From positions 1-64,000 of the forward strand of contig JAJFKC010000045.1 in the NCBI GenBank assembly GCA_021773435.1: a stretch of 64,000 nucleotides of DNA, written 5' to 3'. Each line of letters starts with the position of its first letter. Within the stretch, counting starts at the first letter, position 1. Below, one piece after another: positions 33,984 to 40,533 of the stretch. A model generated the notes under the pieces. The model was not told where the DNA came from. It searched no databases and saw nothing but the letters and a program-made list of their open reading frames with translations. The DNA is from Porticoccaceae bacterium (lineage in GTDB: Bacteria; Pseudomonadota; Gammaproteobacteria; Pseudomonadales; Porticoccaceae). The translations under genes were made by a program, and so were the position numbers.

Positions 33984-36599
33984 ATGATCAAAGACCACCT
34001 GTTTAACTTCGCATTTCAATACCCCAAACGCGTATTTCTATTGATGGCCACCGCCGTTATCGTCTTTGGCGCGATGATACCGATGATCATTATCGACACT
34101 GACCCTGAAAATATGCTGCCCTCCGATCAGGAGGATCGAGTATTCCACGAGGAGGTGAAAAAGAAATTCGGCATCAACGATCTGATCGTGGTCGGTATGG
34201 TCAATGAACAAGGCATCTACAACCCCCGCTCCCTCGGCACCTTGCACACCCTCGCTAATGAAATATTGAAGATAGAAGGCATCGTGCCACAGGATGTACT
34301 GTCTATCCCCACGGTCGACAATATTTCCCAGGACGGCCCCGGCACGATTCGCTTTCAATGGATGATGAACCAGCCCCCCGAAACCGCTGAGGCCGCTCAC
34401 GACATTCAAGCAGCTATCGAAAACCTGCCATTTCTAAACAACACCATCGCCTCACCCGATGGTCAGGCAAGCGCCATCTACATCCCCATTCTTCACAAAG
34501 ACCAATCCTACCGCATCGTCTCTGAAGTCGAAGACATCATCGAGACATTGGACACAGACGATAAGTTTTACATCACCGGCCTACCGGTCGCGGAGGACAC
34601 GTTTGGCGTCGAGATGTTCTTACAGATGGCCACCTCTGCCCCCGTTGCTGGCCTGCTGGTATTTCTGTTGATGTGGTATTTCTTCCGTAGCCTGGCGCTG
34701 ATTGCCTCGCCGATGATTCTCGCCATGGTCGCCATTATCTGCACCATGGGGCTGTTAATCGGCATGGGCTACACCGTCCACATCATGAGCTCCATGATCA
34801 TGATCTTTCTTATGCCCATAGCGGTGGTCGACTCAGTCCATCTGCTGTCCGAGTTTTCTGACCGATATCATGAGGGCACCACACCAGAAGCAGCCATGAA
34901 AGAAGTCCTGGATCATCTGTTTACGCCGATGCTCTTTACCTCTCTGACCTCAGCAGCGGGCTTTGCCGCACTGGCTCTCACGCCTATCCCGCCGGTTCAG
35001 GTATTTGGCCTGTTTATCGCCTTTGGTGTGATGTTGGCGTTTTTATTAACCGTGACATTTATTCCTGCCTACATCGTCTCGTTATCGCCAGAACGACTCA
35101 GCAAGCTGGCTGCAATTACACCTCACGATGATGACAAGGGGCCTTTAGCTAGCAGCCTAAAAGCCCTTGGCAGAGGCAGCCTGGCATGGCCGAAAATCAT
35201 GCTCCTGGTCTTTCTCGGCATTACCGCGATCAGCATTACCGGCGTCACAAAAATTGTTATAAACGATAATCCTTTCCAATGGTTTCAGGAATCTCACCGT
35301 TTACGGATTGCCGATAAAGTACTCAACGACCATTTTGCCGGCACCTACAACGCCTTTATTGTTCTCGACCAACACAACGACGCTGAGCTCGAAGCACAAT
35401 TTAACCAGCACACCGACGACATCATCAAGCGAGCGGAGAGCAGCGGCGTCAAGCTCACAAGCCTGTGGCAAGCGCTCAAACAGGACGCCTCCGATTCGGC
35501 AAAAAATACTGGCGCTACTGACGAGGAAGCAGCAAGCACCTTCCCCGATAGCTCCTTCCCCCAATTTATGCAAAGCCTGGTACTAAAAATTGATGACCGA
35601 TTATTTGATGCTGACGTCCGCCAGGTGGCTTATCTTGAAGCATTGCTAGTTGCAACCGAAGAACAACTCAACGCAAGCAAATACTTTCAGCAACCTGAGG
35701 CATTGGCCTATATCGAAGCCATGCAGGAAGCTTTGCTAAGCACCGGCATCGTCGGCAAAAGTAATTCGGTAACAGACGTGGTTAAAACTGTGTATCGAGA
35801 ACTCAATGAAGGCAGGGCAGATTATTATCGGATTCCCGACTCTCCCGCCGCCGTCGCTCAGACCCTACTCAGCTATCAGTCATCCCACCGGCCTCAGGAT
35901 CTATGGCGCATGGTCACCCCGAACCAGCGTTCTGCCTCAATATGGCTGCAGTTAAAAAGCGGCAATAACGTCGATATGACCCAGGTCGTAGATTTTGTCG
36001 ACGATTACCTGTTAAGCCATCCTCTGCCGCCAGGCGTAGAAATGCGTTGGGCAGGCCTGACCTACATCAACGTGGTGTGGCAGGAAGCCATGGTAAAAGG
36101 CATGGTCGGCAGCCTGCTGGGTGCCTTTGCCGTCGTGTTTATTATGATGGTTGTACTGTTTCGCTCTATCCTGTTCGGCGTTCTGGCGATGATCCCCCTG
36201 TCAGCGACAATTTTGTTTATCTACGGCATCGTCGGCTGGGCTGGCAAAGACTACGATATGCCGGTGGCCATATTGTCAGCGCTGTCGCTGGGCTTGTCGG
36301 TGGATTTCGCCATCCATTTTGTCCAGCGTATGCGGGAGATGGTCGACAAACACGGCAGCTTTGCACAAGCCATTCCGCTGATGTTTGAAGAACCAGCCCG
36401 TGCTATTTCAAGGAATGCCATCGTCATTGCGGTGGGCTTCTTGCCCCTGTTGCTATCACCTCTGGTGCCCTACAACACGGTGGGCATGTTCCTGGCAGCG
36501 ATCATGATTATTTCCTGCCTTACCACTCTGATCATCCTGCCAATCTTGATGACCTACATGAAACGCTTCCTGTTTAAGTCAGACGAGGTAAATCCCTAA
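33984..36599 (+). CDS. MMPL/RND-type transporter with two sterol-sensing-like halves
   Basis: 871 residues. Two repeated halves, each with one helix, a large periplasmic domain and about five more helices. Conserved MMPL elements: DTDPENMLPSD after helix 1 and MPIAVVDSVHLLSEFSD near 277-293, repeated as ALSLGLSVDFAIHFVQRM near 768-785, holding the acidic proton-relay residues. Such RND proteins move lipids or hydrophobic molecules through the envelope. It is coupled to the next gene by a TAATG overlap and heads an operon with a LolA-like protein and an outer-membrane barrel. The substrate is unknown. Confidence 0.88.
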   Translation: MIKDHLFNFAFQYPKRVFLLMATAVIVFGAMIPMIIIDTDPENMLPSDQEDRVFHEEVKKKFGINDLIVVGMVNEQGIYNPRSLGTLHTLANEILKIEGIVPQDVLSIPTVDNISQDGPGTIRFQWMMNQPPETAEAAHDIQAAIENLPFLNNTIASPDGQASAIYIPILHKDQSYRIVSEVEDIIETLDTDDKFYITGLPVAEDTFGVEMFLQMATSAPVAGLLVFLLMWYFFRSLALIASPMILAMVAIICTMGLLIGMGYTVHIMSSMIMIFLMPIAVVDSVHLLSEFSDRYHEGTTPEAAMKEVLDHLFTPMLFTSLTSAAGFAALALTPIPPVQVFGLFIAFGVMLAFLLTVTFIPAYIVSLSPERLSKLAAITPHDDDKGPLASSLKALGRGSLAWPKIMLLVFLGITAISITGVTKIVINDNPFQWFQESHRLRIADKVLNDHFAGTYNAFIVLDQHNDAELEAQFNQHTDDIIKRAESSGVKLTSLWQALKQDASDSAKNTGATDEEAASTFPDSSFPQFMQSLVLKIDDRLFDADVRQVAYLEALLVATEEQLNASKYFQQPEALAYIEAMQEALLSTGIVGKSNSVTDVVKTVYRELNEGRADYYRIPDSPAAVAQTLLSYQSSHRPQDLWRMVTPNQRSASIWLQLKSGNNVDMTQVVDFVDDYLLSHPLPPGVEMRWAGLTYINVVWQEAMVKGMVGSLLGAFAVVFIMMVVLFRSILFGVLAMIPLSATILFIYGIVGWAGKDYDMPVAILSALSLGLSVDFAIHFVQRMREMVDKHGSFAQAIPLMFEEPARAISRNAIVIAVGFLPLLLSPLVPYNTVGMFLAAIMIISCLTTLIILPILMTYMKRFLFKSDEVNP

Positions 36600-37417
36600 T
36601 GAAAAACCTGCCAAATCTAATTGGGCTGATTGCCCTGGCCTTTGTTACAAACCTTGCGCTTGCCGATGAAACCGACGTTGAACAAATCGTTAGCAAGGCG
36701 AACCATATTGCCTTTTATCAGGGTAAAGATGGCCGCGCCGAATCCCGTATGTTGATCACCGACGGCGGCGGCAATAGGCAGGTCCGGCAATTTACTATTT
36801 TGCGCAAAGACCGCCTTACCAAAGACAACAGCACACAGAATGACGCTGACCAGGATTTCCTGGTCTTATTTAGCCGACCGGCAGATGTGCGCAATACCCT
36901 GTTTCGCGTCGTCAAACATACCGACACCGATGATGACCGCTGGCTGTACCTGCCCGGCCTGGATCTAGTCAAACGAATATCCTCCGGCGATAAAAGAACC
37001 AGTTTCGTCGGCTCCCATTTCTTTTATGAAGACATCTCAGGTCGCAGCCTGACAGCGGATAAACATAAATTGATCGAAACTACCGATCAACACTACGTCG
37101 TTAACAATATTCCGCTAGACCCCAATAGCGTTGAATTCGCGTCCTACACGGTATGGATCGACAAACATAATTGGATGCCGGTAAAAACTGAATACACCGA
37201 TGCAGCTGGCAAGGTTTATCGCCGCATCGAAGCGCTAAAAATAGAAGATATCGATGGTTTTGCCACCGCTACCCGGATGCAGGCCTCCGATCTGCGCTCA
37301 GGTGGCTCGACCCTCACCGAAATGCGCTCTATCCAGTACGACCTGGGTTTACCGGACGATATTTTTTCCGAGCGCTCTCTGCGTAACCCACCTCAACAAT
37401 GGTTCAAACGGAAATAA
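36599..37417 (+). CDS. Outer-membrane lipoprotein-sorting (LolA-like) protein
   Basis: 272 residues with an N-terminal signal peptide (cleavage after ...NLALA). The core has the LolA/LppX-like fold pattern common beside MMPL transporters: MLITDGGGNRQVRQFTIL, WLYLPGLDLVKRISSGDKRTSF, GSHFFYEDI and a strand-rich C-terminus. It could ferry a hydrophobic substrate across the periplasm between the MMPL protein and the barrel. Its ATG overlaps the MMPL stop, and the barrel gene follows after 7 bases. Confidence 0.8.
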   Translation: MKNLPNLIGLIALAFVTNLALADETDVEQIVSKANHIAFYQGKDGRAESRMLITDGGGNRQVRQFTILRKDRLTKDNSTQNDADQDFLVLFSRPADVRNTLFRVVKHTDTDDDRWLYLPGLDLVKRISSGDKRTSFVGSHFFYEDISGRSLTADKHKLIETTDQHYVVNNIPLDPNSVEFASYTVWIDKHNWMPVKTEYTDAAGKVYRRIEALKIEDIDGFATATRMQASDLRSGGSTLTEMRSIQYDLGLPDDIFSERSLRNPPQQWFKRK

Positions 37418-37424
37418 CAGCACA

Positions 37425-38774
37425 ATGCTAATCACTCGCCAGCTTGCGCTAATTGCACTCTTGCTACTTTGTCCGGCACTAGCTTCTGCTCTACAGCCTT
37501 CTGAAAACATGACTCAAACGGATAGTTGGAGCGAAAGCGAAGGAAATGCGTGGGATAACGAAGACTGGGGCAGCGACGAGGAACCCGAACACATCATTCA
37601 CGGTTTCGTCGAAGCCGCTTACGGAACCCGCCTACACAGCAATCAATGGCTAGATCGACACGACACCCTCAACGAAGCGCGCTTACGTCTCGACTATTCC
37701 CACTACTTTGGCGCAGTCTATGGCAGCTACAAGGGTGATTTCCTGGTCGACGACCTGGCCTGGAACGGCCCCCTAATCGAAAACCACACCCGTGAAGCCT
37801 TGTTGCGGTTTTCCCTGGGTGCAAACAGCGACATTCAGCTCGGTCGCCAGATACTCACCTGGGGCACCGGTGATTTAGTCTTTCTTAACGACCTCTTCCC
37901 TAAAGACTGGGTAGCGTTTTTTTCAGGTCGGGAAATGGAATACCTGAAAGCGCCATCCGACGCGATCAAATTCAGCTACTTCAATAAACTCGCCAATATA
38001 GACCTCGTGTGGAGTCCAGAATTTGATCCCGATACCTATATGCGCGGAGAACGATTTAGCTATTTTTCACCGCTTGCTGACAGTATCGTCGCCGCGCCAC
38101 CCAGGCTTTCCGTTGACGAGCCAGATACTGGCCTGGACGATGGCGAACTGGCACTGCGACTTTACAAAACTATCAAAGGTTACGAGTGGGCTGTGTATGG
38201 TTATCACGGTTACTTCAAAAGTCCTGTCGGCTTTGACCCCAAAAGTGGACTCAATTATTTCCCAAAACTTTCCTCCCTGGGTGCCAGTGTACGCGGCACA
38301 GTTATGCGTGGCATCGGTAATATGGAAATTGCCTGGTACCAGTCTGAGCAAGACCGGGACGGCACCGACCCGTTTATTCCCAATAGCCAATTACGCTTTT
38401 TAAGCGGCTACGAACAAGAGCTAATCACTCGCCTCACCCTGAGTTTGCAGTACTATCTGGAATGGACTCAGGATTATGACCAGCTAAAAGATAATTCTCT
38501 GCTATCGGATAAAGAACCCGAAGAATATCGGCAAGTGCTCACTACCCGAATCAACTACCGCTCCCCCCAGGAAAAATTAACACTTTCACTGTTTTTGTTT
38601 TATTCTCCTACGGATGATGATTTTTTTGCCTTACCAAGAATTATTTATCGACTGTCCGATTCATGGTCCAGCGAAGTCGGCATGAACATTATGGGTGGCA
38701 AAGAGAATTTTACTTTCTTTGGCCAGTTTGAAGAAAACAGCAGTGTCTTTACCCGAATAAGATATAGCTTTTGA
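37425..38774 (+). CDS. Outer-membrane beta-barrel protein (DUF1302-like)
   Basis: 449 residues from ATG 37425; the longer upstream frame overlaps the preceding gene and lacks the signal peptide. Signal: LALIALLLLCPALASAL. Alternating strands, the motif LGRQILTWGTGDLVFLNDLFP and a C-terminal Phe (TRIRYSF) mark a Bam-assembled barrel. The same module (RQxxWG/TWG) occurs in the DUF1302 gene at 48.3 kb. It probably provides the outer-membrane part of the MMPL-LolA-like system. Confidence 0.8.
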   Translation: MLITRQLALIALLLLCPALASALQPSENMTQTDSWSESEGNAWDNEDWGSDEEPEHIIHGFVEAAYGTRLHSNQWLDRHDTLNEARLRLDYSHYFGAVYGSYKGDFLVDDLAWNGPLIENHTREALLRFSLGANSDIQLGRQILTWGTGDLVFLNDLFPKDWVAFFSGREMEYLKAPSDAIKFSYFNKLANIDLVWSPEFDPDTYMRGERFSYFSPLADSIVAAPPRLSVDEPDTGLDDGELALRLYKTIKGYEWAVYGYHGYFKSPVGFDPKSGLNYFPKLSSLGASVRGTVMRGIGNMEIAWYQSEQDRDGTDPFIPNSQLRFLSGYEQELITRLTLSLQYYLEWTQDYDQLKDNSLLSDKEPEEYRQVLTTRINYRSPQEKLTLSLFLFYSPTDDDFFALPRIIYRLSDSWSSEVGMNIMGGKENFTFFGQFEENSSVFTRIRYSF

Positions 38775-38829: not shown

Positions 38830-39201
38830 ATGACCAACGCCCAACAATTTATTCAACAAGCCAAAGCCAAAGTGCGCTGCATTGAACTCCCACAAGCCCG
38901 TAAACTACTCAGCAGCGGCAATATCACTTTGCTCGATGTCAGAGAAAAAATAGAACATGACGCAGGTCATATCGAAGGTTCAAAACATATTTCTCGCGGC
39001 GTGCTAGAAATGCAGATTGAAAACCACCCGGATTTTCAGAACAAAGACGCGGCCGTTATTGTCTACTGCAAATCCGGTGGCCGCTCTGCCCTCGCTACAG
39101 CGACACTTCAGGAGATGGGGTTTACTCAGCTCTACAGCCTCGAAGGTGGTTTTGACGGCTGGAGCAAAGATCAGGCGGTACCAGAAGGCATTAACGATTA
39201 A
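38830..39201 (+). CDS. Rhodanese-like sulfurtransferase
   Basis: Single rhodanese domain, 123 residues. The active-site Cys sits in IVYCKSGGRSALA (about 78-90), preceded by LLDVREKIEHDAGHIEGSKHI (CH2A-like). GGAGAA lies before the start. It transfers sulfane sulfur to an acceptor. It lies upstream of a deleted blh-type gene and of two YeeE/YedE genes, the set found in persulfide/sulfur-detoxification clusters. Confidence 0.92.
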   Translation: MTNAQQFIQQAKAKVRCIELPQARKLLSSGNITLLDVREKIEHDAGHIEGSKHISRGVLEMQIENHPDFQNKDAAVIVYCKSGGRSALATATLQEMGFTQLYSLEGGFDGWSKDQAVPEGIND

Positions 39202-39380
39202 TTGATCATTTATCGAGACGGGTTATACCTGCTAAGTCTCCTCCACGCGCAACGTCAGTAAGTCCGGTTTTAAAAACCGGAACCTGGAATCAACCTGCTC
39301 TTTCTTTCGATTGAAAAAAACATAAGAACAAGCCATTTATTCCTGATTAAGACCAAAAAGGATCACAAACTGCTTCCATA

Positions 39381-39406
39381 TATATTAGATTATGATAATA
39401 TACTAA
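39381..39406. promoter_or_regulatory. AT-rich palindromic operator overlapping a -10 element
   Basis: ATTATGATAAT (39389-39399) is an 11-bp palindrome flanked by TTAG and CTAA. A TATACT (39399-39404) that could be a -10 box overlaps its right side. ArsR-type sulfide/persulfide repressors such as BigR bind AT-rich palindromes before blh-rhodanese-YeeE/YedE operons; assignment to such a regulator here is inference. The gene just downstream is a deletion remnant. Confidence 0.45.
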
Positions 39407-39433: not shown

Positions 39434-39665
39434 ATGAGCATGATGGAAGTAAAGACTTATTTTGATCAGGACACAGCCACCTTCACTCATCTGGTCTGGG
39501 ACGATAAGTCCATGCAGGCAGCGATTATCGATCCGTTGAGCGCACACTGGGCTTCCCGGTAACCAGCGCCTGCTCCTTTATTACGACTATCCCAAAGCCG
39601 GTGCCTTCCCACCGCCCGAAAGCAACGGCGTTTCCTATCTAAAAACACCCCTTAATAAACTCTAA
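39434..39665 (+). pseudogene. Internally deleted Blh-type metallo-beta-lactamase-fold gene
   Basis: The 5' part reads MSMMEVKTYFDQDTATFTHL...AAIIDP, the typical start of Blh/ETHE1-like sulfur dioxygenase-type MBL proteins, and stops at 39560. In another frame the following bases read PPPESNGVSYLKTPLNKL, the typical C-terminal tail (NGV-YLK-PLN), ending at 39665. About 70 of roughly 290 residues remain; the metal-binding HxHxDH core is missing. The simplest reading is an out-of-frame internal deletion. Confidence 0.8.
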
Positions 39666-39677
39666 CTGGAGCAATTA

Positions 39678-40100
39678 ATGCACCCTTTTATTTTAGCCAC
39701 CCTCGGTGGCTGGCTCATCGGCATTGCCGCTGTCATGATGATGGGACTCAAGGGCCGCATCAGCGGTGTTAGTGGCATTTTGACCGGTGCCCTAACCGAA
39801 CCCGCTGACGAACGACTTTGGCGCTTGCTGTTTGTTGTTGGCATCATTATTGGCGGGGCCATCCCGGTAGCGCTATCCGTGGATTTTAAGCCACCAGAGC
39901 CAGACGCCAGCGTCCTGATAATTATCATCGGTGGTTTGCTGGTCGGCCTTGGCACTGGCCTGGGTAGTGGCTGCACCAGCGGCCACGGCATTTGTGGTAT
40001 TTCCCGTCTGTCACCGCGCTCGATTGTCGCCACCTGTACCTTTATGGCCGCCGGTTTTATTTGCGTCTATCTACTTCGTCATGTCTTTGGAGTGTTGTGA
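39678..40100 (+). CDS. YeeE/YedE family half-transporter, N-terminal subunit
   Basis: 140 residues, about four membrane helices. Signature GSGCTSGHGICGISRLSPRS (about 95-114) holds the Cys of YeeE/YedE (SoxT/TsuA-like) sulfur-compound transporters. It probably moves thiosulfate or another sulfur species through the inner membrane together with the next gene, whose ATG begins 1 base after its stop. Confidence 0.9.
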   Translation: MHPFILATLGGWLIGIAAVMMMGLKGRISGVSGILTGALTEPADERLWRLLFVVGIIIGGAIPVALSVDFKPPEPDASVLIIIIGGLLVGLGTGLGSGCTSGHGICGISRLSPRSIVATCTFMAAGFICVYLLRHVFGVL

Positions 40101-40101
40101 T

Positions 40102-40533
40102 ATGAGTCATCAAAAAGCAGGCAAGCTGATTTCTGCCCTGGCATCCGGGATTGTCTTCGGTCTGGGTATGGCGGTCTCTGGCATGACCAATACCGACCGC
40201 ATCCAGGGTTTCCTCGATATCGCTGGGCAATGGGATCCTACCCTTGCCTTTGTTATGGGCAGTGGGCTGCTGGTCACTTTTATCGGCTATAAATTCGTAC
40301 TGAAAAACCCGACACCACTCTTTGCCGATACTTTCGCCGTCCCGACCCGAACCGATATCGATAAAGCCCTGCTAATCGGCGCGATTATGTTTGGTACCGG
40401 CTGGGGGCTAGTTGGTTACTGCCCCGGCCCCGCCATTGCCGGTTTAAGTTATGGTTATAGCTCTACGCTGCTTTTTGTGCCGGTCATGGTCCTTGGTTTG
40501 CTGCTCGCCAAACCCCTGGGTAAGCTTTTATAG
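40102..40533 (+). CDS. YeeE/YedE family half-transporter, C-terminal subunit (DUF6691-like)
   Basis: 143 residues from ATG 40102; the upstream in-frame extension overlaps the first subunit. About four helices, with FGLGMAVSGMTN near the start and GTGWGLVGYCPGPAIAGL (Cys about 110) near the end, the conserved partner motif. Together the two halves equal one full-length YeeE. It closes the sulfur cluster. Confidence 0.9.
   Translation: MSHQKAGKLISALASGIVFGLGMAVSGMTNTDRIQGFLDIAGQWDPTLAFVMGSGLLVTFIGYKFVLKNPTPLFADTFAVPTRTDIDKALLIGAIMFGTGWGLVGYCPGPAIAGLSYGYSSTLLFVPVMVLGLLLAKPLGKLL

Follow-up and report, generated by a model that had tools for sequence, protein, structure and literature searches.

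The window analyzed here, a stretch of 64,000 nucleotides from a Porticoccaceae bacterium (contig JAJFKC010000045.1, assembly GCA_021773435.1), carries an intact single-domain rhodanese gene, the remnants of a persulfide dioxygenase gene and two intact genes for half-transporters (Table 1). By their family matches, the latter correspond to PmpA (the C-terminal half of TsuA/YeeE) and PmpB (DUF6691), whose half-and-half relation to TsuA/YeeE has been described (PMC11582611). The genes that flank the scar are mostly 92-95% identical to those of two genomes of the same genus, G001 and G005, and the rhodanese gene, with 95% DNA identity to G001, occupies the same place there. Values of dN and dS were 0.025 and 0.20 for pmpA (versus G001) and 0.019 and 0.16 for pmpB (versus G005), with dN/dS ratios of about 0.12-0.19 for the two genes; on this sequence measure, both are under purifying selection.

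Table 1. Features of the rhodanese-pmpAB region, in window coordinates.
Feature	Position	Strand	Basis or remark
Single-domain rhodanese gene, intact	38830..39201	+	PF00581, E 1e-22
Removal site of DUF4395-rhodanese gene	39202..39217	+	Homologous blocks meet at 39212-39217
Operator-like element TTAGATTATGATAATATACTAA	39385..39406	+	Contains promoter-like TATACT, 39399-39404
Residual ORF, 42 codons	39434..39562	+	ATG 39434, stop within island; frame translation
5' fragment of persulfide dioxygenase gene	39443..39534	+	NF040641 143-173, E 0.002 (weak alone); alignment with relatives
Junction 1, TATCGATCC	39526..39534	+	(Near-)repeat, 460 bp apart in intact genes
Central island, codons about 186-206	39535..39595	+	1 bp lost; CHDY changed to YYDY
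Junction 2, AGCCGGTGC	39596..39604	+	9-bp direct repeat, 165 bp apart in G005
3' fragment, last 21 codons and stop	39600..39665	+	NF040641 401-423, E 0.003 (weak alone)
pmpA-like YeeE/YedE half-transporter gene, intact	39678..40100	+	PF04143, E 2e-13
pmpB-like half-transporter gene (DUF6691), intact	40102..40533	+	PF20398, E 4e-42

Comparison between relatives suggests that the ancestral order was RND transporter, LolA-like protein, a protein with no Pfam match, rhodanese, DUF4395-rhodanese, dioxygenase, pmpA and pmpB. Upstream of the rhodanese gene, positions 33984-38774 of the window encode an RND transporter, a LolA-like protein and a further large ORF, an arrangement common to the window, G004, G010 and G021; the last two also have a BigR gene next to the RND gene. 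Intact copies of the DUF4395-rhodanese gene occur in G004 and G021 (one of 258 aa lies at L054 6664-7440, and the G021 copy is 76% identical); the gene is reduced to a remnant of about 200 bp between the homologous blocks in G001 (L050 3584-3782) and is gone in the window, where these blocks are joined. A perfect inverted repeat with 9-bp arms, TCCGGTTTTaAAAACCGGA (39263-39281), lies in the interval that separates the rhodanese gene from the operator-like element; in G001 it is imperfect.

In G001 and G005, the place of the scar is taken by an intact ETHE1-type gene of 282 codons. The window retains 223 of the 849 bp of this gene, from the orthologous ATG at 39443 (the residual ORF starts at its own ATG) to the stop codon at 39663-39665, in the form of two end fragments and a 61-bp central island. 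Alignment with G001 and G005, together with the repeat offsets, reveals two deletions, of 460 bp and 165 bp, which with the single base lost from the island add up to 626 bp, the entire difference to the intact gene. Each deletion falls on a short repeat. Copies resembling TATCGATCC are found at positions 84-85 and 544-545 of the dioxygenase gene in both G001 and G005, one copy being off by a base in each relative, and both copies of AGCCGGTGC, at positions 615 and 780, are intact in G005. The end fragments keep a coding-like appearance, with zero to one amino acid change each: the 5' fragment differs from G001 by four nucleotides and by no amino acid, its first 30 codons specifying an identical protein, and the 3' fragment differs by one amino acid.

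A sequence-only reading of this DNA had proposed that the 5' end and the last ~20 codons of a dioxygenase gene survive, mutually out of frame, in a deletion scar between rhodanese and YeeE/YedE genes, and had named alignment with intact genes of relatives as a check. Both pieces are indeed where it placed them, and they match the start and the end of the dioxygenase domain of profile NF040641 (residues 143-173 and 401-423, the latter match spanning about 39596-39662). These profile matches of short pieces are weak alone, and it is the DNA alignment with G001 and G005 that establishes homology and synteny. The pieces are out of frame because of the 460-bp deletion and the 1-bp loss. The scar is thus real, as proposed, but it was formed by two deletions with a third, central fragment between them, and not at one junction.

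The central island has diverged from the relatives about four times more than the end fragments. Mismatches to G001 or G005 number 13-15 of 59 positions in the island and 8-10 of 159 in both end fragments together (Fisher P 2e-4 to 4e-4, somewhat optimistic, as the alignment itself was used to set the edges of this short stretch), and the same regions compared between G001 and G005 show no such contrast (P 0.78). Neutral drift alone after a single inactivation would not predict this excess. Its possible sources are error-prone template switching, sequence patched in from a diverged allele, and chance, given stretches this short. An origin of the island by patching from a diverged allele, or by error-prone template switching in the event that made both deletions, is less likely than a drifting remnant: the concentration of changes within the island and the microhomologies at both of its edges speak for it, while the G001 and G005 orthologues remain its best match (78-79%), neither the rest of the genome nor the eight relatives compared offered a better donor, and the short stretch and chosen edges weaken the contrast itself.

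The lost gene had been taken for one of the Blh type. Homology to ETHE1-type sulfur dioxygenases holds: the G001 orthologue matches 4ysk over 280 residues (E 1.3e-95) and ETHE1 itself (4chl; E 4.6e-25), so that it is homologous to ETHE1/PDO2-type enzymes over the whole domain, and its nearest solved structures are the ETHE1-like dioxygenases 4ysk, 4ysl and 4efz; of the gene itself, the window retains fragments only. The Blh assignment, however, is only half correct. The G001 orthologue matches residues 143-421 of NF040641 only, at 333 bits against a curated cut-off of 625, and has no DUF442 sulfur-transferase domain (residues about 1-140 of the profile); the N-terminal part of NF040641 finds a match elsewhere in the genome, at G000:C46. 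The intact relatives are PDO2-type enzymes, consisting of an ETHE1 domain and missing the DUF442 half by which Blh is defined.

The iron-ligand motifs of an ETHE1/PDO2-type enzyme were not found in the window copy. HAHADH, GHTPAC and GDT fall within the deleted parts, and the island lacks a conserved metal-ligand histidine. From knowledge of the ETHE1 family, we infer that the window copy cannot yield an active enzyme, because it is missing these three motifs and reads YYDY in place of CHDY. The genome, with a completeness of 98.7%, yielded no other copy of the gene. What is left at the scar is a true pseudogene, derived from a persulfide dioxygenase gene of the PDO2 type by ordinary gene decay.

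Within the family, pmpA is present at 65% identity or more in 17 of 112 genomes. Intact dioxygenase orthologues adjoin pmpAB in G001, G005 and G003 (all of the same genus), G010, G021, G036 and G016, and the gene is missing in five of the 17 pmpA genomes, namely that of the window, G002 (whose assembly is only 76% complete), G004, G026 and G029. G029, which belongs to another genus, carries its own 5' dioxygenase remnant and a broken rhodanese gene (L059 6300-7100, minus strand), and in its cluster pmpAB is intact and BigR is still there. The dioxygenase gene was probably lost more than once. A candidate remnant in G004, ATGGAAG followed by CTATTTTGA, was suggestive by eye and was rejected, BLAST supporting only the operator element there. 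In G002, L053 3700-4700 holds an N run within panB whose flanks are duplicated on both sides, likely a scaffolding artefact.

It had further been suggested that the strain kept sulfur transport and lost the oxidation step. At the level of the genome this is wrong, because a BpPRF-type enzyme and a sox cluster remain. The former, encoded at G000:C7, is a persulfide dioxygenase-rhodanese of 349 aa that matches 5ve3 (E 2.5e-75) as well as human-type ETHE1 (4chl); similar matches, at about profile positions 259-404, are found in relatives whether or not they have the lost gene. In the sox cluster (G000:C33), soxC, soxX, soxY and soxZ exceed curated cut-offs, and further ORFs resemble soxD, soxA and soxB by sequence and order only. 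The cluster lies at L150 6168-13000, with a divergent gene for a SoxR/BigR-like ArsR protein. A second split YeeE-type, pmpAB-like pair is found near it (L189 921-2034), which makes the role of the pmpAB pair beside the scar uncertain.

The palindrome that had been described as remaining at the scar, with a TATACT before it, is also present. It lies upstream of the scar region and encloses the TATACT, and it is imperfect, with seven of nine arm positions paired. A counterpart between the SoxR/BigR-like ArsR gene and soxC of the same genome is identical at 19 of 22 bases, a number of identities reached in none of 2000 shuffles of the soxC-side region. A pattern of the two sites (18 fixed bases, at most three mismatches) matched nowhere in 3.4 Mb but at these two places, and its reversed control matched once, with the reservation that the pattern had been defined from the very sites it then found. 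The same pattern occurs with no mismatch before the intact dioxygenase gene of G001, and with two mismatches before the soxC gene of G004; G001 and G004 thus carry the same kind of element. As expected of a SoxR-type regulon, the same operator-like site stands at the sox cluster and at pmpAB. The ArsR protein of G000:C33 resembles the structures of BigR, HlyU and YgaV, and contains the two cysteines of HlyU alignments. A simple scan for the sigma-70 consensus at the operator gave no match on the + strand and two on the - strand, about what is expected by chance.

BigR itself appears to be gone. Orthologues with 66-73% identity to the BigR of G026 are found in sister genera and in G003, and no close one was found in the genome of the window, its best match (44%) being the protein encoded beside soxC; neither a BigR gene nor a BigR remnant was found in the window. 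The BigR-type box of the sister genera reads TTGCTAAT, about 10 bases, CTAATATAAT, and a matrix scan of the window reached 11.8 at best, away from the element, versus 27-40 for the boxes used. The palindrome is probably more than a relic, as it matches the sox-cluster site and now fronts pmpAB, and it probably still regulates pmpAB. Shared control of pmpAB and sox is probable because the element before pmpAB is of the sox-cluster type.

It is less likely that the element is a decaying leftover or the site of another regulator, its likeness to the sox site stemming from related ArsR boxes with no present cross-control. Related repressors may share parts of their sites, and the right half ATACTAA is indeed common to the element and to the BigR-type boxes of sister genera; against this stand the low matrix score, obtained elsewhere in the window, and the conservation of the element in G001 and G004. 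A more far-reaching scenario, which we put forward tentatively, is that pmpAB passed in this genus from control by BigR, whose gene disappeared, to control by the SoxR-like repressor of the sox cluster through a change of operator, and that the dioxygenase gene decayed afterwards; a sulfide-detoxification operon would then have been converted into a unit of the Sox regulon that serves sulfur import or sulfur signalling. As ATACTAA is common to both kinds of box, such a change may have been partial.

Two other explanations of the scar fare much worse. That the 42-codon ORF was retained as a leader or small protein tuning pmpAB expression is very improbable: it sits between the promoter and pmpA, and its first 30 codons show no amino acid change versus G001, but with just two to four nucleotide differences any test is powerless, pmpA is served by a GGAGC ribosome-binding site of its own, and no recognisable start of the dioxygenase gene stands between the promoter region and pmpA in G004, G002, G026 and G033. 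An assembly artefact, in which an intact gene of the real genome was collapsed by the assembler, is likewise very improbable: the assembly is in 49 contigs, of which the window is one, and the junctions fall on repeats, but a usual assembly graph would not collapse on repeats of a mere 9 bp, the substitutions and the lost base of the island are absent from the relatives, and G029 has a comparable remnant.

The arrangement is reminiscent of the BigR-controlled yeeE-yedE-pdo2 operon of Acinetobacter baumannii (PMC7315123), which likewise combines YeeE/YedE half-transporters with a secondary persulfide dioxygenase under a BigR-type ArsR repressor; in the window, in contrast, the dioxygenase is a pseudogene, a close BigR orthologue was not found in the genome, and the operator-like site is of the sox type. 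With the bigR operon of Xylella and Agrobacterium, which encodes a bifunctional Blh (PMC5823870), the local orthologues share the ETHE1-type sulfur dioxygenase domain, but they have no DUF442 sulfur-transferase domain; the neighbours here are pmpAB, whereas that operon has a TauE-type sulfite transporter. The repressor of that operon acts at the -10 region, and the element described here overlaps TATACT. In Hyphomicrobium denitrificans, SoxR and SoxT1B tie an ArsR protein of the BigR/SqrR group and YeeE-type transporters to sox regulation (PMC11582611, PMC12423496), as here, although with full-length SoxT in place of a short PmpA/PmpB pair. The YeeE/YedE-type SoxT1B is required for signalling to SoxR in Hyphomicrobium (PMC11582611), which makes a link between pmpAB and the SoxR-type protein plausible here; Hyphomicrobium pmpAB itself did not respond to thiosulfate (PMC11582611, PMC12423496).

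Taken together, we consider it quite probable that the locus holds a pseudogene made by short-repeat deletions, whose loss was tolerated and whose promoter was kept for pmpAB under predicted control by the sox repressor. The ancestor would have had a cluster of rhodanese, DUF4395-rhodanese, a persulfide dioxygenase of the PDO2/SdoA type (ETHE1 domain only), pmpA and pmpB. Two short-repeat deletions of 460 and 165 bp, the loss of 1 bp and substitutions would have turned the dioxygenase gene into a pseudogene, a loss presumably tolerated because the BpPRF-type rhodanese fusion and the Sox system remain and may be functionally redundant with it. The promoter was most likely kept because it now directly drives pmpAB, and the SoxR/BigR-type ArsR protein encoded beside soxC probably controls both pmpAB and sox, by predicted binding in response to sulfane sulfur.

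In this family, a conserved transporter cluster has probably lost its persulfide dioxygenase repeatedly, and the locus is a well-resolved example. It leads to the prediction that PmpAB-type transporters can serve a Sox regulon without their partner enzyme, and the operator hand-over, if true, would show a gene cluster exchanging one sensor of sulfane sulfur for a related one.
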